Positions 29,795-40,274 of a stretch of DNA of 50,577 nucleotides are shown in pieces. A model generated the notes under the pieces. The model saw only the letters and a program-made list of their open reading frames with translations. It was not told the origin of the DNA and searched no databases. Each line of letters begins with the position of its first letter. The stretch's first letter is position 1. The DNA lies in assembly GCA_029066845.1 (NCBI GenBank), contig JAIEFR010000023.1, forward strand, positions 1-50,577, read 5' to 3'. The translations under genes and the position numbers were made by a program. The DNA is from Clostridia bacterium (lineage in GTDB: Bacteria > Bacillota > Clostridia > Christensenellales > Borkfalkiaceae).

Positions 29795-30451
29795 TTAAAT
29801 GTCGTTTTGATTATCGTCTTCGGGTTCTTCCGCGGTGGGCGGTAGTTCTGCATTCTCTTCTATCTGCGGAATTGCAGTTTGCGCTTTTTTCTCCTCTTCG
29901 CTCTGTTTGCTGAGCCTGACAATTTTTAAAGCCTGCGACACGATAAAAGGAATTGCAATTAAAGCAATAATTATAATTATGCCGTACTTGCTTAAAAAGC
30001 TGAAAAACGCACCCCAACCCGCCGAATTGAAAGTGCATTTTCCAAGCAGATTTTCAGCTGTGACCGGTGCTCTGTCAGCAGACGGATTGTTTACACCCTT
30101 TGTTGTTATGCCGTTCTCGCTGATTGCTATGGCTTCGTGAACCACACTCTGTCCTTTTATTGCCGTATCAAAGCCCTCACCAGCCACAAAGACGATATAG
30201 TCCCCGACTTCAACGTCGGCATACTTGCACGAATGGTACACAATCAAATCGCCGACCTTGATTTCAGGCTCCATCGAATTGGTCTGAACTATGGCAAAAG
30301 ACGTGCCGAAAAAGCTAACGGGCTTGTGCTGAGCACGGCAAATTACGATATTCACGATAATTATTGCCGTGAGCACTAAAATTATTGCCGTGATAACGGT
30401 GCAGATTATGGATAGAACCTTTGACCAGGGCTTCTTTTTTTCGTTATTCAC
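29795..30451 (-). CDS. SipW/ER-type signal peptidase I (second of two)
   Basis: A membrane-bound serine peptidase of 218 residues that cleaves signal peptides outside the membrane. Helices at about 10-38 and 156-176 flank the catalytic domain. The nucleophile is Ser59 in TNSMEP. The general base position has His105 (VVHEA) instead of Lys, which marks the ER/archaeal/SipW class, and Asp126 lies in NNPSAD. An acidic, Pro/Glu-rich tail follows. Its start overlaps the stop of the DUF2357-like gene by four bases, so the two are coupled. It probably processes the TasA-like proteins of the locus, though which peptidase serves which substrate is unknown. Confidence 0.92.
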   Translation of the reverse strand: MNNEKKKPWSKVLSIICTVITAIILVLTAIIIVNIVICRAQHKPVSFFGTSFAIVQTNSMEPEIKVGDLIVYHSCKYADVEVGDYIVFVAGEGFDTAIKGQSVVHEAIAISENGITTKGVNNPSADRAPVTAENLLGKCTFNSAGWGAFFSFLSKYGIIIIIALIAIPFIVSQALKIVRLSKQSEEEKKAQTAIPQIEENAELPPTAEEPEDDNQNDI

Positions 30452-31896
30452 CCTTTTTTCTTCGTCCTTTTAATTGTAGTAAGCTTTTTACGTGTCACGC
30501 GCCTGGGCTTATTCTTCGCCTTTTCTTCGGCTAGTTCCTTTTGTAGCTTGATAAGCTTGGATTCGGCACGCTCGGACATACGCTGCGCACGTTCAACCTC
30601 TTCCCATTTCAGCTTTAAAAACAGCTTACGCCTGCGGAGACGCTCCTGCTGCTCTTTAATCTCGATACGCTTCTTTTCAATAGCGGTCAACGGCTTCTTG
30701 TCGGAAACGTCCTTAATCTGCTCTTCAATCAGTTCGTTATACATTTCATCGTTGATACGCGAAACCGAACGGAAGAATTTAGAAAAGTTTACGTTAAGGC
30801 GGTTTTCCACCACGTATTCGCCATCCTGTGCAGCGGCGATCAATTCGTCCTTCATCTTGCGGAAGTAATATTCGTTAATCGTCTCCTCACCCGACTGCTG
30901 GTTTGACAATTCGAAATCGGGAGTAAAAGTATAGTTTGTCACTATATTAAACTCTTTTTCCTGAGGCACGGAGAACTCAATATCGTCGTACTTATCCTTC
31001 TTCAAAATACGGTCGGTAAGAAGCGATTGCAAGCTCAAGCCCGCAATGACGGTCAAATCGTCGAAATAGTCGCCGTCCACGGGCAAATTCTTGTCCTTGA
31101 CGTCAACGCTGTAACCAAGATAGGTATATGACGAAATATACAACCACAGCTTATAGCAGTTGTTATAATCAACGTTTTTAGTTAAAAGATTGGTCTTCTG
31201 AATGGGCGGGCGCACAGGCTTAGCTTTGTTAAGCTTTTTCATAAACTCCGTAGTCTGCAAAACGCGCAGTCTGCGGCGGATAGTCTCTACCCTGTTGAAA
31301 AGGTCCTCGTTTTTGCTGGCTTCCTCGGTAGATTCGGGCGGCTCCTGCACCTGTAAGTTAATATTGCATTTGAATCTGCTTATTCCGTACTCGAACTCCG
31401 ACTGAACGCAAACATTGGTCTGCTCGAAATTATCAATCTTGCCGTTCAAATCCTTATAACGCTGTTCGACAAACTTTATAAGCCTGTTTACAAGCGCGCA
31501 AATAAAGCGGTTTTCGTATATCGCAATATCCTCGTCAAGCTCGACTGTAAGCAGCTTTTTGGGCGTTACTTCGCCCTCTTTGTCAATATTCTGCACAAAC
31601 TGCGAGTGCGTCGTCAAATGTCTGACCGTTCTTGAATTGGTGCGGCGCACCTTAGCTACGTCAAGTATAAGATCGTTTTCGGCAATGAATTTGCGGGGAT
31701 TGCGCGCAATCTGCTCTATGGAATGCAGCGCGCCTTCTATCGTCAATACCCAGTTATCGTCAAGCATAACCGACTGTGACACCACGTTATGCAAAACCTT
31801 ATTCTCACCTGCACGAAGCGCGGCAAGAAAGCGCGAATAGCTTGCGCTGTCGCCGCCGATTTTTTTCATAAACTTGTTGAGAAAAGTCTTTTCCAT
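30448..31896 (-). CDS. DUF2357-like (McrC-associated family) protein with coiled-coil basic tail
   Basis: 482 residues, partner of the McrB-like ATPase next door. The segment YENRFICALVNRLIKFV (127-143) is the hallmark of DUF2357, a domain normally paired with McrB-type GTPases and often linked to a PD-(D/E)xK nuclease. Here TPDFELS (325-331) is not followed by a D/E-x-K, so a working nuclease is unlikely. Residues about 385-465 form a strongly charged coiled coil, then a very basic end (residues 465-482). AAGGTG precedes the ATG, and a hairpin lies between it and the ATPase gene. The function is not known. Confidence 0.72.
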   Translation of the reverse strand: MEKTFLNKFMKKIGGDSASYSRFLAALRAGENKVLHNVVSQSVMLDDNWVLTIEGALHSIEQIARNPRKFIAENDLILDVAKVRRTNSRTVRHLTTHSQFVQNIDKEGEVTPKKLLTVELDEDIAIYENRFICALVNRLIKFVEQRYKDLNGKIDNFEQTNVCVQSEFEYGISRFKCNINLQVQEPPESTEEASKNEDLFNRVETIRRRLRVLQTTEFMKKLNKAKPVRPPIQKTNLLTKNVDYNNCYKLWLYISSYTYLGYSVDVKDKNLPVDGDYFDDLTVIAGLSLQSLLTDRILKKDKYDDIEFSVPQEKEFNIVTNYTFTPDFELSNQQSGEETINEYYFRKMKDELIAAAQDGEYVVENRLNVNFSKFFRSVSRINDEMYNELIEEQIKDVSDKKPLTAIEKKRIEIKEQQERLRRRKLFLKLKWEEVERAQRMSERAESKLIKLQKELAEEKAKNKPRRVTRKKLTTIKRTKKKG

Positions 31897-31915
31897 ATCA
31901 CACCTTAAAAAGATA

Positions 31916-31936
31916 GCCTAACCCGTCGGGTCAGGC
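31916..31936 (-). terminator. Hairpin between the McrB-like and DUF2357-like genes
   Basis: GCCTGACCCG pairs with CGGGTTAGGC with one G-T pair. On the minus strand TATCTTTTT follows. It is short and T-poor, so it may act as a partial terminator that lowers expression of the downstream genes, or as an mRNA processing point. Confidence 0.55.
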
Positions 31937-31957
31937 CTTTTAAGCATAAAATGCCGA

Positions 31958-33499
31958 TTATGACAGTTTTTGCAGTTCCTTTATATAATCAACGCAATAG
32001 GGCATTGAATCTTTGCCGAACTTATCGTTGAAGAAATCAATCAATGCACTAAGTTCCTTGTGCAGGAAAGGCAGGTTGAGTGCATTGAACTTGCGCAGAA
32101 TTTTGGAGGTTATAATGAAGTCTACGCCGCCGAGCTCGGTTCCGCCGCACGCCATATAGATGGGAACGAACAGCTTGAGCTGTTTCATAATACGGTTACC
32201 AAAGCTGATTTTGAAGTTTTCGCGAATGTGTGCGTCAAATTCCTTGATAAGTCCCAACGTTTCTTCGGAAATCTTATATTCGTTATGCGCACGCTCGAAC
32301 AGACTGTCAAGGTAGCTGTACGAACAGTTATAGCTTTCCGTCAGAGGCGCGTCGAAATAGTCTGCCTTGTTGTTGAGCTCAAGCGTAACGGCACGGTCGT
32401 AAACCTTATCGGTAATTGTAAATGTCGAGTCGTCGTTGTTCGCCGTTCCGATAAACCATACGTTCTGGGGAACGAGGAATTTGCCGTAAACGACATTCTT
32501 AGGGTCGTCCTCACGCGGCGATGCAATGAGGTCTATCTTCCACTCTGCCACGTCGGGCATTTCCATTATGGACAGGAAGTCCGCAAAATAGTACTCTATA
32601 CGCGCCAGATTCATTTCGTCGAGGACCATAAAATTGGGGTCTTCGCGAAGCGATACTTCATACAACGAAGCAAGGAAATCGGTTTCGTTGAATTTCTTGG
32701 TAAATTCGTTAAAGTAACCTATAAGGTCGGCTCTGTCACGCCAGGAAGGCTGAACGGAAATTATGGATGTTCCGTTATTGAAGAACTTACCCATTGCATA
32801 GGGCAGCGAGGTTTTACCTGTACCGGATATACCTTCGAGTATAAGCACCTTAGAGGTTGCCATACCGGAAAGGAATACTCGTATAGTTTCCTCAGTGTAA
32901 TAAAGTTTAAGCTGTGAAGCCGCGAAGTTTACAAATCTGGTAACAATCTGCGGCAGAGTAAGCATATCCTCGTCGGTCATATATACGACGTTGGGATTAC
33001 GCTCGTACTTCTCGTCGAGGTTGATAAGCTTTGTAAAGCGGTTATTTGCCTCCTGCTTCTCCTCGTCGCCGAGAGCGACCTCGTCGCCAGTCGAAGCGGA
33101 GCCTGCCGCCTCATAGCCGTTCATTCCCAGTTTAAGGGCGAAAATCTTGCTCTTTTCCTTTACAAGCTGGTCTGCCTGCTCTTTGAGCCTTGCAACCTCT
33201 TCCATAAGTCTGTCTTTATCGACTTCCTTTGCACGGAAGAAGATATACCTGCGCACGAGTTGGAATAACCTGTAGCAGATAAAGAACAGGAAAGCAATAT
33301 TTGCCGCAGAAACGATAATAAGGCATATCCAGCCCCACACGTCAAACGCGCCAACGTGCCGTCCCAAATTCTGACAGTATGAAATAGCGTCCCCTATAAA
33401 CAGTTTATAGAACAAATAGAAGAACGTTTTTATGAAATACCATAAGTTTTGCAACCACGCCCACAAAAAGTTGACGTAGTACTCAGCAAACTCTGCCAT
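31958..33499 (-). CDS. Membrane-anchored McrB-like AAA+ ATPase
   Basis: 513 residues. Two hydrophobic helices (about 10-35 and 55-82) anchor it in the membrane, a short coiled coil follows (92-118), and an AAA+ module fills the rest. Walker A is GISGTGKT (223-230), Walker B MVLDEMN (291-297), sensor 1 GTANND (351-356) and an arginine-finger-like DKVYDRA (364-370), the arrangement of McrB and related ATPases. McrB normally has an N-terminal DNA-reading domain; here that is replaced by membrane helices. GAGGGTGG precedes the ATG. It is encoded between a SipW-type peptidase and the DUF2357-like partner. A role in surface-protein export or assembly rather than restriction is inferred. Confidence 0.85.
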   Translation of the reverse strand: MAEFAEYYVNFLWAWLQNLWYFIKTFFYLFYKLFIGDAISYCQNLGRHVGAFDVWGWICLIIVSAANIAFLFFICYRLFQLVRRYIFFRAKEVDKDRLMEEVARLKEQADQLVKEKSKIFALKLGMNGYEAAGSASTGDEVALGDEEKQEANNRFTKLINLDEKYERNPNVVYMTDEDMLTLPQIVTRFVNFAASQLKLYYTEETIRVFLSGMATSKVLILEGISGTGKTSLPYAMGKFFNNGTSIISVQPSWRDRADLIGYFNEFTKKFNETDFLASLYEVSLREDPNFMVLDEMNLARIEYYFADFLSIMEMPDVAEWKIDLIASPREDDPKNVVYGKFLVPQNVWFIGTANNDDSTFTITDKVYDRAVTLELNNKADYFDAPLTESYNCSYSYLDSLFERAHNEYKISEETLGLIKEFDAHIRENFKISFGNRIMKQLKLFVPIYMACGGTELGGVDFIITSKILRKFNALNLPFLHKELSALIDFFNDKFGKDSMPYCVDYIKELQKLS

Positions 33500-33547
33500 T
33501 TATTTCCACCCTCATTACTTAGTTTTGCTTATTTGCAAAACCTGAAA

Positions 33548-34393
33548 TTACTTTTTGTCCTCTTCGTTTCCGGAAGAAGCTTCCTGCTTTTGTTCTGCGG
33601 GTTTGTCTTCCGTATTATCGTCCGTTACCGTCTTATCTTCGGCAGCGGATTTTTCCTCTGTATTTTGCGCATCAGGCTGCGTATTCTGCGACTGCATTTC
33701 GGCAAGAAGCTCCTGTCTTATCCTCTCTCTTTCTTCAAGCTGAGATTGCTCCGCTTCGATAGTCTGCGCTTTCTTTTCCTTTCTGATTACCAGAATGAGA
33801 TTAACCGCAAAGTACGCAACGACTAAAAGCGAAGGCAAAACTATGCAAACAAAGAAGCCCGCGGAAGAACTCATAAACAGGAACATATGACCTATTCCGC
33901 CTGCCTTGCCCTGATAAACGCCTATTATTTCCTTGGGCAGTACCCACTCGTTATTGCCCTGGGGGTTGTTGTCGCCGTGCGTAACAAAATGCTGAACCGC
34001 ACCGCTATTATTATAAACTATATCTATAATGCGGTGGGTATTAAGGAGTCTTTTTCCGTCCAGAATAGTCGGGTCCTCAAAGGTGACGATATCGCCGACT
34101 TTGAGGTCTTTGGTATCCTCCTCGGACAGCAGTTTGATAGAAATCATATCGCCCCTGGAAAAGTTATCGGCTTTTACTTCACCCGTTACTGCATCCTTCG
34201 CCATAGATTCCGAGCTTACGCCGACGTAGGCTTTACCGAACACTTCGGTAAACTGATGATATCCCTTCGCCTTGGAGGAAATAGTGCATACGGCAAGAAA
34301 TAGCGCAAAGATTAAAACAATTGCAACTACAACGTCCACCACTATATTTACTATTTTTTTAGTTTTAGGTGTCATATTGATTTTAGGCAACAT
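33548..34393 (-). CDS. SipW-type signal peptidase I (first of two) with long acidic tail
   Basis: 281 residues from the ATG at 34391-34393, which has an AGGAAG site; a start 13 codons further upstream has none. Transmembrane helices at 14-36 and about 176-204 flank the catalytic domain. The nucleophile is Ser63 in SSESM, the base is His120 in NTHR (SipW/ER class) and Asp141 lies in HGDNNP. The C-terminal 75 residues are cytosolic by topology and highly charged, with a possible coiled coil (about 208-235). First gene behind the promoter at 34464-34492 and adjacent to the TasA-like genes, its probable substrates. Confidence 0.93.
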   Translation of the reverse strand: MLPKINMTPKTKKIVNIVVDVVVAIVLIFALFLAVCTISSKAKGYHQFTEVFGKAYVGVSSESMAKDAVTGEVKADNFSRGDMISIKLLSEEDTKDLKVGDIVTFEDPTILDGKRLLNTHRIIDIVYNNSGAVQHFVTHGDNNPQGNNEWVLPKEIIGVYQGKAGGIGHMFLFMSSSAGFFVCIVLPSLLVVAYFAVNLILVIRKEKKAQTIEAEQSQLEERERIRQELLAEMQSQNTQPDAQNTEEKSAAEDKTVTDDNTEDKPAEQKQEASSGNEEDKK

Positions 34394-34463
34394 ATCTTCT
34401 TCCTTTCGTATAAGCAAAAAATGAAGACCCATCTTTTTTAGCTTTAAACATTATACCTTATAT

Positions 34464-34492
34464 ATTTTACCATAGAATTTACAGTAAATCAA
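34464..34492 (-). promoter_or_regulatory. Promoter of the SipW-McrB-DUF2357-SipW operon
   Basis: On the minus strand TTGATT (34487-34492), a 17-base spacer and TAAAAT (34464-34469), after the TasA-like terminator and about 70 bases before the SipW start. Confidence 0.7.
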
Positions 34493-34532: not shown

Positions 34533-34568
34533 TAAAAAATTTTGAGCCGACGGATTATCCGTCGGCTC
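34533..34568 (-). terminator. Terminator of the TasA-like gene
   Basis: 11-bp perfect stem (34544-34554 with 34558-34568), followed on the minus strand by A-rich then T-rich sequence (34533-34543). It separates the TasA-like genes from the SipW-McrB operon. Confidence 0.85.
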
Positions 34569-34600
34569 ATTTTAATCAATTACAAACGATTTGATTTTAA

Positions 34601-35425
34601 TTAGGTTGAAGGAGTAGTTGCTCCGGAAGCGGTAAGGGATACCGCTACGGAAAGCTCTTCTACATTGATGGAGTTAGCACTCGTGCAGTTCGTATCCTGA
34701 CCTTCATACCATACGCGAATAACAACTTGAGTAGCAGTCGTAGTTACCTTACCAAGAGTTGCAGCAGCTGTCATATCAGTAGTAATCGTAACAGCGGAAG
34801 TTAAAGTATTGATATTGGTAGCATCTATGGTACCAGCCGTCGTTACACCGTTGTACGTAGTCGTAGCCCCGGATACAGGTGCATAAATCTTGGTTGCCGT
34901 GCCGTACGTAACGGAAACACGAAGCGCCTTAGATATATCTTCAGTCGCTCCAGTCGTACCATTTACCTCAATTTTATTTACATAAAGATCGGTATATTCC
35001 GTTCCCTCGGCAGCGTCTGCCTTAACCCAGTAAGTATACTCCATTACATAGTGGATATCAGTAGTTGATGTGCTTGCAGTAACTGCAGTAGGAGTCGATG
35101 CTTCAAACTCTGCACCCTCACCAGCTACACCGCTATCATAGTCAACTTTTTCAGGGTTGGCAACGTTGAAGAACGTCTTTCCGTCGGCAGTCGACGCAGG
35201 GCTCATTTCGAATACGCCAGTATTTAAAGACTGCGCAGTCGAACCCCAGGTTCCGGTTGATGCATTACTGATAACCAGGTTCTTTGAGGTCGTTGCCTTT
35301 ACGTTCATACCCGTAGCCGTTACGGTACCGCTCTGCGAGAACCACGCGAACGTTGATCCTGCGGACAGGGCAACAGCCGCAACCAGCGCACAAGCAGCGC
35401 CTACAATTTTCTTTGTTGCTTTCAT
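34601..35425 (-). CDS. TasA/camelysin-like secreted protein with SipW-class signal peptide
   Basis: 274 residues. The N-terminus has a basic start, a hydrophobic helix and the SipW-cognate motif STFAWFSQSGTVTATG (about 24-39). The mature part is rich in Thr, Ala, Ser and Val, as in beta-sandwich proteins of the TasA/CalY group that polymerise into biofilm fibres in Bacillus. A C-terminal VVIRVWYEGQDTNC resembles the paralogue encoded upstream. A good AGGAG site precedes the ATG. It is the second gene behind the c-di-GMP riboswitch and has its own strong terminator. Fibre formation is an inference from the family. Confidence 0.88.
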   Translation of the reverse strand: MKATKKIVGAACALVAAVALSAGSTFAWFSQSGTVTATGMNVKATTSKNLVISNASTGTWGSTAQSLNTGVFEMSPASTADGKTFFNVANPEKVDYDSGVAGEGAEFEASTPTAVTASTSTTDIHYVMEYTYWVKADAAEGTEYTDLYVNKIEVNGTTGATEDISKALRVSVTYGTATKIYAPVSGATTTYNGVTTAGTIDATNINTLTSAVTITTDMTAAATLGKVTTTATQVVIRVWYEGQDTNCTSANSINVEELSVAVSLTASGATTPST

Positions 35426-35490: not shown

Positions 35491-36276
35491 TCAATGACCT
35501 GCAAAGTCAATGCTCATTTTAAGATCTTCTTCAAGAATCTCGTCTATACACTCGGGGTCCCAGCCCTCCAGCCAGATAACAACAGTAAATCGAAGAGTTG
35601 CACCTTTTGCGACGTTTTTGTATCCCATTAAACCGGCACGTTCAAAAACGCACATATCGCTTACAAAGTCAACCGTTCTGTCGTATTTAACGTTACTTTC
35701 AAGAAGCTTTTGATTTTCTTCACTCTTTTCCGCTTTCTTATATACGGTATATGTTTCATCCGACAGCAGAGGCTCGTCATCGATTATCATTACACGAACC
35801 GCTTCGTCGATATGAATATCCGTTTTATTGCTTCCGGTGACCATTTCGTCGATTTTGAAAGTCATATCGACATCAACTGCTCTTTCGGAATTGTTTACAA
35901 GCCAGAAGCTGAAAGAATAGAACGCAAACTCATTTCTTCCAGAGTATATACTGTGTATGCCGTCCTGCTTTGCTATATCGTCGGGCAGGTTGTCATCGTA
36001 CTGCTTTTGACCGTACAAAAGCCGCTTGTTAGGTTCGTAAGTAACGTCCTCGAAATAACCGTCCACAGGCACGACAAGTCTTGAAGTCTGCCCGCTTAAA
36101 TCACGGTTTAACGTTAACGAAAGCTTAACGTCCTCATCATTATTTATACGCACTACGAAGTTGTTAGCTCTATGAGCATAAACCGTAAAGCCAGCGAATA
36201 CTAACGAGATTGCAAGCGCAATTGGAATTACGATTTTAGATATGCGTATCCATTTTAGTCGTTTCGTCCACCTCAC
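35491..36276 (-). CDS. Membrane-anchored TasA-like paralogue, first gene after the c-di-GMP riboswitch
   Basis: 261 residues from a GTG at 36274-36276, chosen because GAGGGG lies seven bases upstream; an earlier GTG seven codons away has no such site. A basic stretch and one helix (about 14-34) precede an extracellular domain with AFYSFSFWLVNNSERAVDVDM and VVIWLEGWDPEC, the latter matching the end of the TasA-like protein at 34601. The SipW motif is less clear here (GFTVYAHRANN), so it may stay anchored and act as a fibre base or nucleator, as TapA does in Bacillus; this is inference. It is separated from the next gene by 65 bases without a terminator. Confidence 0.78.
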   Translation of the reverse strand: MRWTKRLKWIRISKIVIPIALAISLVFAGFTVYAHRANNFVVRINNDEDVKLSLTLNRDLSGQTSRLVVPVDGYFEDVTYEPNKRLLYGQKQYDDNLPDDIAKQDGIHSIYSGRNEFAFYSFSFWLVNNSERAVDVDMTFKIDEMVTGSNKTDIHIDEAVRVMIIDDEPLLSDETYTVYKKAEKSEENQKLLESNVKYDRTVDFVSDMCVFERAGLMGYKNVAKGATLRFTVVIWLEGWDPECIDEILEEDLKMSIDFAGH

Positions 36277-36329
36277 GCTTTTTCCCCTCAAAATCACTCA
36301 AAGCAAACGCAAATTCTTGTATACAAACT

Positions 36330-36456
36330 AAAAAAGCCAAAACTTACGCCCTAAACGTCCGAAGGGAATAGCTTTGGCAACTGACTACCATAAACCGATT
36401 TTTCCACCGGTCGTTAGGTTCTTAAGCTTTGCGTCCTGACCTTTCGGACAGTTTGC
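36330..36456 (-). promoter_or_regulatory. Cyclic di-GMP-I (GEMM) riboswitch with terminator
   Basis: The minus strand shows the GEMM-I core in order: GCAAACTG (P1 5'), a GAAA tetraloop hairpin, GGACGCAAAGC, AACCTAA, then GGTAGTCAGTTGCC (P1 3' end at 36376). A terminator follows: GCCAAAGC (36371-36378) with GTTTTGGC, then six Ts (36330-36335). P1 and the terminator share bases, so ligand binding should favour read-through (ON switch); that direction is inferred. Confidence 0.9.
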
Positions 36457-36479
36457 TTTTAACAATCTTTACAATATGT

Positions 36480-36508
36480 ATTCTATTACTTATTGTATAA
36501 AAAGTCAA
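36480..36508 (-). promoter_or_regulatory. Promoter of the c-di-GMP riboswitch-TasA-like operon
   Basis: On the minus strand TTGACT (36503-36508), a 17-base spacer and TAGAAT (36480-36485), about 24 bases before the aptamer. Confidence 0.75.
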
Positions 36509-36630: not shown

Positions 36631-38043
36631 TTACAAATTATATTCTTCCGGAGGTTGAGGCTTACCGTAGTGATAGCCCTGACCGTAGCCGATTTTAAGA
36701 CCCTTGATATAGTCCAGAATGACTTCGTCCTCCACACCCTCTGCAACGATTGCAAAGTTCTTCTTTTCCGCAAAGCCGACAAGCGTTTCAACAAGACCGC
36801 CGATAAGGAAATCGTCCTGCGCCTGCTCGATAAACTTTCTGTCAAGCTTAACCCAGTCGAACTGCAGATCTTCCAAAGTCTTCAAGGACGACATTTCCAG
36901 GCCGAAATCGTCCACCGCTATTTTAAAGCCCATCTGCGTGAGCTTTAATATGTTGGAGGACACCTCAGGCACCTTGTCGAACATAGCGAACTCGACAATT
37001 TCCATACATATATTTTTTGCGGGAATTTTGAAGCGCTTGTAAATCTTTCTGAATTCCTCGGCAAGATGTGGATACATCAGCTGTTTGGGCGAAAGATTGA
37101 GCGAGAAAATAAGTTCGCTGTCCTCGGGGTGATCCTTATAGTGCTTTGTCTGTCTGCGCAGAAGCTCTTCGAAGGCCCACGAACCTATCCAGTTGATATC
37201 TCCCGTCTGCTCCATTATGGGCAGGAATTTTACGGGGGTCAGCACGCCGAGCGCGGGATGCTGCCAGCGCACGAGCGATTCGTACGCAATCGCCTTGTTG
37301 CGGTTGAGATCGTAAATGGGCTGATAGAACAGCGTAAACTGATGCTCTGCAATCGCCGCTTTGATATCCTGGTACTGCTTGTACTCGTCGGTCTGCGTTT
37401 CGGCAAGCACCTCGGAGTATATAACGAATTTATTCAAGCCATCCTTCTTTGCAGTAACCAGCGCAAGCTCGATGTTCTGCAAAAGCGCTACGGAATCTGC
37501 ACTGAATTCGTTATTGCTTGCGATACCGAGATTGACGTTGATGTTAAGCTTTGCGCGCGTAAGCAAAGTTACGGGCTTGTTGCACTCCGAAATTGTTACG
37601 GTTGCAATATTGGTCAAGCCGATATTGTCCATATGCTCTTCGATATAGACCGCAAGGCACTCGTCGTCGTAGTCGCAGATTTTGGAACCGCGGGGAATAA
37701 CGCGCATAATGCGCTCACGGAGCATCTGGGTAATCTTTTTAACCTGTCTTTCGCCAAGCGAAAGCTTCATATCCGCCATTCCGTCAATCTGAATTAAAAT
37801 GACGGAAAAGTGCAAATCGCCGCGGTTAATTTCGTACTTGTGTTTGAGCAGCTCTTCAAAACCGATTCTGTCCAGCTCTTTAATTTTATACTTTTCGGCA
37901 ATAAGTCTGTTTCTGTCCTTCCTTATTCCGAAAAACAGAAAAACGCAAGCGCCTATACAGAACAGGAAAAACAATACCACCAAAAGTATGTAAACGCCCA
38001 AATCGAGATTCAAATTGTTTTCTTCCAGTAACGAGGTTATCAT
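36631..38043 (-). CDS. Membrane EAL-domain c-di-GMP phosphodiesterase with degenerate GGDEF
   Basis: 470 residues. One N-terminal helix (about 16-39), a degenerate GGDEF domain (about 75-215; DYDDEC at 124-129 stands where GGDEF should be) and an EAL domain (about 225-468). All expected catalytic residues are present: Glu255 in ESL (an EAL variant), Asn316, Glu348, Asp378-Asp379, Lys399, Glu435 and Gln455. It should therefore hydrolyse c-di-GMP at the membrane, while the GGDEF part is probably only regulatory. AAGGAG precedes the ATG. Second gene of a two-gene operon, next to the c-di-GMP riboswitch. Confidence 0.93.
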   Translation of the reverse strand: MITSLLEENNLNLDLGVYILLVVLFFLFCIGACVFLFFGIRKDRNRLIAEKYKIKELDRIGFEELLKHKYEINRGDLHFSVILIQIDGMADMKLSLGERQVKKITQMLRERIMRVIPRGSKICDYDDECLAVYIEEHMDNIGLTNIATVTISECNKPVTLLTRAKLNINVNLGIASNNEFSADSVALLQNIELALVTAKKDGLNKFVIYSEVLAETQTDEYKQYQDIKAAIAEHQFTLFYQPIYDLNRNKAIAYESLVRWQHPALGVLTPVKFLPIMEQTGDINWIGSWAFEELLRRQTKHYKDHPEDSELIFSLNLSPKQLMYPHLAEEFRKIYKRFKIPAKNICMEIVEFAMFDKVPEVSSNILKLTQMGFKIAVDDFGLEMSSLKTLEDLQFDWVKLDRKFIEQAQDDFLIGGLVETLVGFAEKKNFAIVAEGVEDEVILDYIKGLKIGYGQGYHYGKPQPPEEYNL

Positions 38044-38063: not shown

Positions 38064-40229
38064 TTACTTGCCGCCGTTCTTAGCCGCCGCAATACGTTTG
38101 TAATCGAAAGTATCGACTATTTCGAGAGCCGCTTCGGGCTTCATCGATTTGCCGATAATCCAGCCCTGTATGGTATCACAGCCTAGGTAGTTAAGCATAT
38201 CGAATTCCTGCGTGGTTTCAACGCCTTCGCAGATAGTCGTTCTATTCAAAAGCTTTGCAATGTTAGTAATGAACTTGATAATTGCCTGGCTTTCCTTGCT
38301 GGTAAGAACGTCTTTGACGAACTCTTTATCAATCTTTATTGTTGAAATAGGCAACTTTTTGATGTATAGCAGTGACGAATACTCCGTACCGAAGTCATCA
38401 AGATGCACATCGATGCCCTGCGCGGTTAAAATATCCAGCTTTTTCAGCGTTTCAGTAAAGTTGGTCATTAAAAAGCTTTCGGTTATTTCCACGCAAATCG
38501 AGCGAGGCTTGAGATCGTATTTTTTATATAGGCGCAGGAAGTTTTCCGTAAATCCCGCCTGCATCAGCTGAACTGGCGACACATTGAGCGACACACTGAC
38601 GTTTTTGCCCTCCAGCTTTTTGGCGAACTGCATACCCGTATCGAAGATGAAGTCACCAAGCTGGACCATCGCACCCGTGCGCTCCGCATAGGTTATGAAC
38701 GAGAACGTATCCACATTGACGTTCCAACTCTTCTTTACGCGGAACAGAGCCTCGAAGCCTTCTATCCTCTCTTCCTTTATATTATACTGGGGCTGATATT
38801 CCATCTCGAACGCGCCTTCCGAAAGCATCTGCTTGATGTCGTAGGTGATGAAATATTTATCATAGAGCTTTCTCTGCGATTCGTGGTAAACGATATAGTC
38901 GGCGATATTGGTATCCATTACGCGCTGGCGCGCCGCCTCTGCCGCCTTGTACGCGTGCTCGAAGTTGAGCGGCGACATTGAAGCGTCGCACATCGCAAAG
39001 CCCGCCTTTACGTCAAGTGTGAACAAGTTGTCCTCCATCTTGATGGGCGCGTTTATATATCTGTGAATGTCTTCCATATCCGACATCAGATTGTCCAACT
39101 TTTTGCCGTCCGGATAGGTGACGCCGATATAAGCAAAGTCAAGCTCATAGGCATAAGTGAATTTTTCACGCACCTTTTTGACTATGATATGCTGAATATC
39201 GATAGCCATCTGCTTGCCGAACAGCGTCTTTATGCGGTCGAGGTTACTGATATACAGCACGCCGAGCAGCGTTCTCTTGCCCTTTGTGGTAAAGCCTTCG
39301 AACACTTTCGAAAGCGATGACGTAGCCTTTCCGTCGGCGTCGAGTTCACCCGAATCCTCGCTGCCGCCGCTCTGTATAAACGAATCGGCGTTTGCTACTT
39401 CGCCGGCAAGAACAAGCGGGTGTGCCACGGAAGGGCTGAGCCGCATTGCAACCAGTCTTTCACCGACGTTACCGCACATACTTACCAGGTTGAAGTTATC
39501 CTTATCGAGGTTTGCGGTATCAATTTTGGAAACCGCAGCGAACTCGTGCTTGAACGCCGCGTTTGACTTTATTATTCTGCCTTCCTTATCCAGCCTTACG
39601 CGATATTTGAAGTGGTGCGTTCTCTCCTTGTTTGCAAGAAGATAAGCATAAATTATGAACGCCGCCGTAATAACCATTCCCGCGGCAATCAGAATAGCAA
39701 CGGTGTTGCCGCGCAAATTGCTGATTATTTTCTGGCGTTCAGTAAAATCTTTCAAGCCACCTATGCGATAGTTGCTTTCACCGAGAGCCGACGGCGCAAA
39801 GATATAAGTATTGCCGTCAAGCTCGATCTTACCGACCGAATTGTAGGACAGACCGTAATTGTCGCGGATATTTCCGCTGAGGTTAAGGCCGCCGCCGCTA
39901 ACGATATTTCCGCCGTGGGTTTCGTTGAAAATTATGTAATAATCGAATTCGCCCGTTGCGACGCATTCTTCCAATATCGCGGAGAGCAACTCCCCGTCGC
40001 TCTCTATATCACCGATATTTTCGGTATGGGACTGATATACTTTTTTAGATACTACGTCCGCCTTCTGCTGAATTGCGGCGTATTCCTGCCTGTAAGTGCG
40101 CGAAGAAAACTGACTGAAAATGAACAAACCCGCCGCCACTTCAACGAGAACGATTATAGCGACGAAAATGAACATTTTCCATACGGAAGACTTATTCAGT
40201 TGTGGTAAAGCTTTTTTTCTTTTTTTCAC
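38064..40229 (-). CDS. Membrane sensor EAL-domain c-di-GMP phosphodiesterase
   Basis: 721 residues from a GTG at 40227-40229, with GGGG upstream. Two helices (about 18-40 and 176-198) enclose an extracellular sensor domain of some 135 residues. A linker and a degenerate GGDEF-like domain (about 320-450) follow, then an EAL domain with GFEALFR (Glu493), SLNVSPVQL, EITES, LDDFGTEYSS, KIDKEF and CEGVET, all active-site segments. It probably lowers c-di-GMP in response to an external signal. First gene of the EAL pair, 20 bases before the second. The sensed ligand is unknown. Confidence 0.93.
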   Translation of the reverse strand: MKKRKKALPQLNKSSVWKMFIFVAIIVLVEVAAGLFIFSQFSSRTYRQEYAAIQQKADVVSKKVYQSHTENIGDIESDGELLSAILEECVATGEFDYYIIFNETHGGNIVSGGGLNLSGNIRDNYGLSYNSVGKIELDGNTYIFAPSALGESNYRIGGLKDFTERQKIISNLRGNTVAILIAAGMVITAAFIIYAYLLANKERTHHFKYRVRLDKEGRIIKSNAAFKHEFAAVSKIDTANLDKDNFNLVSMCGNVGERLVAMRLSPSVAHPLVLAGEVANADSFIQSGGSEDSGELDADGKATSSLSKVFEGFTTKGKRTLLGVLYISNLDRIKTLFGKQMAIDIQHIIVKKVREKFTYAYELDFAYIGVTYPDGKKLDNLMSDMEDIHRYINAPIKMEDNLFTLDVKAGFAMCDASMSPLNFEHAYKAAEAARQRVMDTNIADYIVYHESQRKLYDKYFITYDIKQMLSEGAFEMEYQPQYNIKEERIEGFEALFRVKKSWNVNVDTFSFITYAERTGAMVQLGDFIFDTGMQFAKKLEGKNVSVSLNVSPVQLMQAGFTENFLRLYKKYDLKPRSICVEITESFLMTNFTETLKKLDILTAQGIDVHLDDFGTEYSSLLYIKKLPISTIKIDKEFVKDVLTSKESQAIIKFITNIAKLLNRTTICEGVETTQEFDMLNYLGCDTIQGWIIGKSMKPEAALEIVDTFDYKRIAAAKNGGK

Positions 40230-40274
40230 TGATATTTTCCCCGTAGTGCACACGCACGGTATAATACACGATAC

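Follow-up and report, generated by a model that had tools for sequence, protein, structure and literature searches.

A CoCoPALM-type operon with a c-di-GMP-I riboswitch probably encodes a machine for surface-protein export or assembly

We describe an operon on the 50,577-nucleotide contig JAIEFR010000023.1 (assembly GCA_029066845.1; Clostridia bacterium, Borkfalkiaceae), which was analysed at its full length and is called the window throughout. Its minus strand encodes, in this order, a SipW-type signal peptidase (SipW-1), a membrane-anchored McrB-like AAA+ ATPase, a nuclease-less DUF2357 protein and a second SipW-type peptidase (SipW-2; Table 1). This order, the strand and the coordinates had been given in an original prediction made from the letters alone, and the window sequence confirms them, as it does the four-base stop/start overlap at the DUF2357/SipW-2 junction (30451-30448). 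That prediction had missed two genes for exported proteins, a cyclic di-GMP (c-di-GMP)-I riboswitch and two genes for EAL proteins, all located upstream on the same strand. The operon fits the systems named CoCoPALM and is, in our view, probably a c-di-GMP-switched machine for the export or assembly of surface proteins, and not a restriction system. As judged by sequence, its composition, gene order, linkage, riboswitch, lack of a nuclease, hydrophobic anchor and co-inheritance are established.

Two samples of related loci were compared with the window. Sample 1 holds the best 80 of 482 confirmed stretches, obtained by scanning an alignment of the AAA+ protein against genome contigs. Its sources are uncultured Clostridia, Bacilli and Mycoplasmatota, including Acholeplasma granularum, A. 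oculi, Paracholeplasma vituli and Peloplasma aerotolerans; synteny counts respect contig ends, and denominators are testable loci only. In this sample, SipW-1 lies directly upstream of the AAA+ gene in 59 of 65 loci, DUF2357 directly downstream in 72 of 79, SipW-2 is found in 50 of 52, and genes for surface-type proteins, that is, proteins similar to the two exported ones of the window by iterated profile search, lie upstream in 39 of 43. When neighbouring genes were clustered, with labelled genes called first, the most recurrent families were SipW, AAA+, DUF2357, surface-type and EAL proteins. The gene order thus recurs over 80 loci and is more than chance. Sample 2 was drawn evenly from the class (243 genomes), without regard to similarity to the window. 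The AAA+ protein is present in 14 of these, the window's own among them, and 16 stretches were fetched from the other 13 and searched with the same profiles. Here, SipW lies near 10 of the 12 membrane-type loci (L109-L117 and L119, from 8 genomes) and near none of the four loci of soluble type (L121-L124, of which L122 and L123 are truncated at contig ends), soluble meaning an AAA+ protein without a membrane peak, with a marginal peak in L122. In a comparison of 33 genomes, 10 have a membrane-type AAA+ protein, and SipW scored above the cut-off in 9 of these; it did so in 0 of 3 with soluble ones only and in 3 of 20 without any, the last being a non-random set; in G170, SipW lies at another place than the AAA+ gene, and in G166 it falls under the cut-off. 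The original prediction would have been refuted by a lack of recurrent linkage with SipW; the linkage is borne out in both samples. In the window's own assembly (1.56 Mb, 99.1% complete), DUF2357 was found only in the operon. The distances of the AAA+ protein, DUF2357, SipW-1 and SipW-2 correlate (Mantel r 0.80-0.94, 48 loci including the window); on this sequence evidence, the unit is inherited together, mostly vertically.

Some loci show other layouts. On two Acholeplasmatales contigs (L055/L058 and L057/L049), a second AAA+ copy adjoins a complete system and has its own SipW-1 and surface-type genes, while DUF2357 and SipW-2 were not found with it, as if one DUF2357/SipW-2 served two sets. 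Genome G105 (L111, L119 and L122; contamination 6) holds membrane-type, SipW-linked AAA+ proteins and a soluble relative together. L118 and L120 encode membrane-anchored McrB-like/DUF2357-like pairs; L120 belongs to the same family of genomes as the window, and its AAA+ protein has about four hydrophobic peaks and a partner of 834 residues. L022, on a contig titled Candidatus Omnitrophota, has an AAA+ protein identical to that of the Tenericutes contig L021, so that mis-binning is probable.

The ATPase had been called McrB-like, and this label holds: a profile from 27 homologues, run against the PDB, matched McrB alone (three sequences, best E 2.7e-4), and the fold matches McrB as well, although a single-family hidden Markov model gave a weak match (PRK11331, E 6e-6, far under its cut-off). 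Of the two N-terminal membrane helices proposed, one corresponds to a strong hydrophobic stretch (residues 57-75, mean hydropathy 2.52), while the other is weak only (22-40, 1.11). In the AlphaFold2 (AF2) model, the N-terminus forms two long helices (2-51 and 54-127); residues 2-127 consist of these helices with their membrane segment, and the DNA-reading N-terminal domain of McrB is absent. At the sensor-1 place, the window protein and all 13 membrane-type rows of sample 2 carry N-x-D-D, and the four soluble rows N-x-D-E/Q. The motif TAN[KNRQ]DDST is present in 82 of 82 AAA+ rows of sample 1, which count the window and its duplicate L001 besides the 80 loci.

The partner protein does contain the DUF2357 segment read from its sequence earlier: PF09823 matches with 33.9 bits (cut-off 23.3), and its YENR residues are shared without exception by the 57 relatives aligned. 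Its AF2 model has no strands past residue 270, much of 298-345 being of low confidence, and shows the presumed coiled-coil tail as a single helix (405-462). The absence of a PD-(D/E)xK site, also claimed before, agrees with the structure prediction, in which the window partner has no such domain. None of 57 membrane-type partners matches any nuclease family, and 37 match DUF2357. Both soluble relatives that have a partner on the contig (L121 and L124) have one that matches PDDEXK_7 and DUF2357, in L124 just below both curated cut-offs.

Compared with the McrBC complexes of E. coli and T. gammatolerans (PDB 6ut6, 6hz4, 6ut5 and 6ut7), the window ATPase has a membrane anchor in place of the DNA-reading domain and NxD instead of NxxD, and its partner ends after DUF2357 without PD-(D/E)xK. 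As judged by the models and family searches, both domains that mark type IV restriction of the McrBC kind are lacking. CoCoNuT systems have a HEPN or other nuclease nearby where McrC lacks one, and none was found among the eight operon proteins in a Pfam scan; genes farther out were not scanned. Among these eight proteins there was likewise no VWA domain, and the sequence profiles of the ATPase point to McrB and not to MoxR-type AAA+ proteins such as PDB 2r44 and RavA (3nbx).

The original prediction knew of no described system with this composition. This was wrong, whereas its view of a nuclease-less, membrane-located and SipW-linked pair is supported. CoCoPALMs are named in a few sentences of Bell et al. 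2024 (eLife; PMC11090510), which postpone their function and describe a clade whose GTPase carries a fused FtsB-like domain of membrane and coiled-coil segments, accompanied by signal peptidase genes that probably serve pilus assembly. The window shares with that description the McrB-like AAA+ protein with N-terminal membrane and coiled-coil helices, the NxD motif (usually followed there by D or E, here N-x-D-D), the McrC homologue with a coiled coil and the adjoining signal peptidase genes. As for the FtsB homology described there, Pfam scans of residues 1-150 in three AAA+ members gave no FtsB/DivIC match. The CoCoPALM passages give neither substrates nor function, and the words riboswitch, di-GMP, SipW, biofilm and Acholeplasma are each absent from the main text. 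Among the open-licence papers listed for CoCoPALM, only Bell et al. 2024 and its preprint are on this topic by title; the same two papers came up for McrBC in connection with signal peptidases and pili. In this literature we found no description of a McrB/DUF2357/SipW link or of one between SipW and a c-di-GMP riboswitch, nor a paper treating such a riboswitch together with Acholeplasma.

Could the operon serve anti-phage defence, as a membrane-tethered McrBC relative that senses infection and is kept among surface genes? McrBC ancestry would fit, and the ATPase core matches the PADLOC candidate PDC-M26A with 136 bits. However, that match is weaker in membrane-type (124-149 bits) than in soluble AAA+ proteins (156-265 bits; four each), and among these eight it is near full-length only in L124. 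In addition, no nuclease or other known effector was found among the operon proteins, the SipW linkage is nearly constant in sample 1, and the AAA+ tree has a branch (support 100/99) that sets apart the 23 rows assigned to Clostridia from their record titles. We therefore regard defence as quite improbable.

Both peptidases are of SipW type, as had been stated: they exceed the TIGR02228 cut-off (51.85 bits). The Bacillus SipW equivalog model stays under its own cut-off. They are the only two TIGR02228 peptidases found in the genome. Among 65 rows of SipW-1, the catalytic Ser is conserved in 62, and His and Asp in 63 each. Among 66 rows of SipW-2, Ser and His are conserved in 65; the first Asp is replaced by Ile or Val in 23 rows including the window, and the second is retained in 62. 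The cytosolic tail of SipW-1 forms a charged helix, roughly E-K-E-K-I-R-Q-E-L-L-x-E-L, whose motif occurs in 48 of 65 SipW-1, 3 of 66 SipW-2 and 0 of 13 unlinked SipW-like proteins, counted with an expression that was tuned on SipW-1. The likelier start of SipW-1 is the ATG at 34393, preceded by AGGAAG.

This tail bears on two further explanations. In the first, the AAA+/DUF2357 pair would act in quality control, much like FtsH or Bcs1, and would extract or clear from the membrane SipW precursors that have stalled, signal peptides left after cleavage or SipW that is spent. The ATPase is anchored on its N-terminal side and the SipW-1 tail could dock, but no protease domain other than SipW was found among the eight operon proteins, and clearance would therefore need a partner; moreover, the system has two SipW genes dedicated to it, and AAA+ copies adjoin surface-gene sets of their own, which suggests a constructive role. 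We consider quality control unlikely, though less so than defence. In the second, the ATPase would control SipW activity or gene expression. Here, the conservation of the tail and a report that B. subtilis SipW is bifunctional (cited in PMC13082335) stand against the cost of a ring ATPase plus activator as a regulator and the absence of a DNA-binding domain among the operon proteins scanned, which makes such a regulator the least probable of these explanations.

In the descriptions of tapA-sipW-tasA (B. subtilis), sipW-bsaA (C. perfringens) and sipW-tasA with calY (B. cereus), a dedicated SipW likewise stands beside exported matrix genes, but the exported proteins of the window are unrecognisable as TasA. 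The term ATPase does not occur in PMC7395162 and PMC13082335, and in the former riboswitch and c-di-GMP appear in the reference list alone. The 274-residue protein has no named-family match in domain scans. Its A27, W28 and F29 are invariant in 31 aligned homologues, and if it is cut after A27, as we assume, F26-A27-W28-F29 has aromatic residues at P2 and P2', the positions where TasA has them. In TasA of B. subtilis, P2 is W26 and P2' a phenylalanine; SipW cleaves this protein, whereas LepB does so poorly (PMC10269814). Relatives of the 268-residue protein occupy the same place from Clostridia to Acholeplasma. A strict SipW-type site behind a hydrophobic stretch is found in 88 of 177 surface-type proteins versus 53 of 443 neighbours without a label. 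Weak matches to TIGR04088, the model of the SipW signal, came from 1 of 33 and 6 of 31 rows of the exported-protein homologues. Very large exported-looking proteins (about 1,600-2,400 residues) also recur beside the system, for example at L048:9551-15222 and L036:4086-9032, and some of them carry SipW-like cleavage sites.

The exported-protein genes follow the c-di-GMP-I riboswitch; a genome search that scored 150 of 231 first-look candidates found no other. Within the window, no c-di-GMP-II riboswitch scored above the Rfam thresholds. A model built from 22 aptamers of such loci gave 91 matches in 81 sources, every one on the coding strand, and placed a riboswitch in 50 of the 80 loci of sample 1. 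Of 40 loci with surface-type genes and a sufficient upstream stretch, 31 have it before the AAA+ gene. As the model had been derived from such loci, Rfam's own models (c-di-GMP-I or c-di-GMP-I-GGC) were also run and matched in 22 of 32 distinct loci (subsets 5/12, 7/7, 3/7 and 7/7, with L007 in two). The matches of the 3/7 subset all lie near the far locus end, which for L055 is ahead of the next copy, L058. A terminator lies at most 140 bases from 61 of 86 aptamers versus 17 of 270 random draws, and its 5' arm overlaps the aptamer 3' end by more than six bases in 52 of 86 versus 2 of 270. Since the arm overlaps the aptamer 3' end, the folded aptamer would exclude the terminator, predicting an ON switch.

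EAL proteins are encoded upstream in 17 of the 34 sample 1 loci with enough flank, 16 of which have two; ten members of the cluster were checked and all match PF00563. All 51 long EAL proteins, among them the two of the window, lack a GGDEF motif. DDFG is seen in 22 of the 24 large ones and in 9 of the 27 small ones, and because of the latter count many small EAL proteins may be inactive. In sample 2, EAL-cluster-like proteins were found in L109, L110, L111, L112, L117 and L119, several with low scores that may reflect GGDEF alone. The genome of the window has three GGDEF matches: an EAL-less protein with an intact motif, a degenerate one outside the operon fused to an EAL domain, and the window's 470-residue protein; the 729-residue protein has neither the Pfam match nor the motif. 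No PilZ domain was found in this genome. By these searches, which for receptors covered PilZ domains and c-di-GMP-I riboswitches genome-wide, its recognisable c-di-GMP network consists of one cyclase, three EAL proteins and one receptor, the operon riboswitch.

The best reading of these findings is that a membrane-tethered AAA+ motor descended from a restriction ancestor works with SipW on surface-protein export or assembly. At high c-di-GMP, the aptamer would fold, its 3' strand would become unavailable to the terminator, and the exported proteins would be made; the adjacent EAL proteins, if active, would remove c-di-GMP and switch the genes off. The exported proteins would exit by the Sec route and then be cut by SipW-1 and SipW-2. 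The McrB-like protein, presumably held at the inner membrane face by its N-terminal helices, would assemble into a ring that the DUF2357 protein stimulates, in the way McrC stimulates McrB, and nucleotide hydrolysis would drive a SipW-coupled step: release, pulling or the ordered hand-over of subunits into a surface structure. We infer assembly, in preference to extraction or control of SipW, as the action of the motor. A narrower version is tentative: that a restriction motor became a surface-fibre machine, its McrB/DUF2357 ring coupled through the SipW-1 tail, switched ON by c-di-GMP and independent of sortase, type IV pili and the wall. As the system is kept in wall-less Acholeplasma, such a machine would need no cell wall.

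Several points weigh against this reading, besides the tuned tail expression and the non-random AAA-less genomes mentioned above. In the window leader, which is not among the 86, the terminator overlap is exactly six bases (36378-36373), just under the criterion, and the aptamer is missing from the minimum-energy fold of the full leader; for these two reasons the ON direction is inferred. A terminator and a promoter-like site separate the SipW-AAA-DUF genes from the riboswitch-controlled ones, so that the motor may be made constantly. A riboswitch lies beside the operon in only 2 of the 10 SipW-linked loci of sample 2 (L109 and L119; L111 is cut upstream), and riboswitch control is therefore not universal, being common in some lineages and missing in others. 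SipW was not found in the 19.9 kb fetched for the membrane-type loci L118 and L120, six AAA+ copies were found without a DUF2357 gene, and the exported proteins gave no structure or family match to TasA or CalY.

The coordinates are collected in Table 1. A single promoter had been proposed for the four genes from SipW-1 to SipW-2. A promoter-like site and a strong terminator do delimit them, as far as consensus matches go, but the functional unit reaches upstream to about 40253. The hairpin between the AAA+ and DUF2357 genes, if an attenuator, would reduce the output of DUF2357 and SipW-2 relative to the ATPase. Outside the operon, an AdoCbl-II riboswitch (25933-25857, minus strand) lies between an open reading frame at 28312-25979, a putative methionine synthase, and a small one at 25755-25342 with a signal-like start.

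Table 1 Features of the operon and its leader in the window
Feature	Position	Strand	Evidence
729-residue protein, membrane segments, degenerate GGDEF region, intact-looking EAL (c-di-GMP phosphodiesterase type)	38064..40253	-	Pfam EAL 199 bits; EAL motifs present
470-residue protein, one membrane segment, degenerate GGDEF and EAL	36631..38043	-	Pfam EAL 182 bits, GGDEF 38 bits
Promoter-like site TTGACT-17-TAGAAT before riboswitch	36480..36508	-	Consensus scan 10/12, not proof of function
c-di-GMP-I riboswitch aptamer	36373..36467	-	Rfam RF01051 67.4 bits, gathering 35
Terminator hairpin and T-run (expression platform)	36330..36378	-	-17.8 kcal/mol; 5' arm overlaps aptamer 3' end by six bases
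268-residue predicted exported protein, first gene past riboswitch	35491..36297	-	N-terminal hydrophobic segment 22-40
274-residue predicted exported protein, SipW-type cleavage site F-A-W-F (26-29)	34601..35425	-	Alignment of homologues
Strong intrinsic terminator, boundary of exported-protein genes and SipW-1	34543..34569	-	12 pairs, 8 G-C, T-run
Promoter-like site TTGATT-17-TAAAAT with TG, ahead of SipW-1	34464..34492	-	Consensus 9/12
SipW-1, SipW-type signal peptidase with cytosolic tail helix	33548..34432	-	TIGR02228 56.5 bits
Membrane-anchored McrB-like AAA+ ATPase	31958..33499	-	Profile, fold match, hydropathy
Hairpin and T-run, AAA/DUF2357 intergenic, possible attenuator	31915..31937	-	Terminator scan
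DUF2357 (McrC N-terminal-like) protein, nuclease-less, long C-terminal helix and basic tail	30448..31896	-	PF09823, AF2 model, McrC matches
SipW-2, second SipW-type signal peptidase	29795..30451	-	TIGR02228 76.6 bits

CoCoPALMs have been named beside restriction systems without a function. As the nuclease is absent where membrane anchor and SipW occur, and as many lineages show the tie to c-di-GMP, the present evidence moves them away from defence. If our reading is true, an energy-driven machine would be added to surface-protein biogenesis in Gram-positive and wall-less bacteria, and the operon would be an example of the reuse of a restriction motor. c-di-GMP would gain an output in relatives of Acholeplasma, and, should the operon encode a surface-fibre machine, it would be the main or only recognisable c-di-GMP output in the genome of the window.

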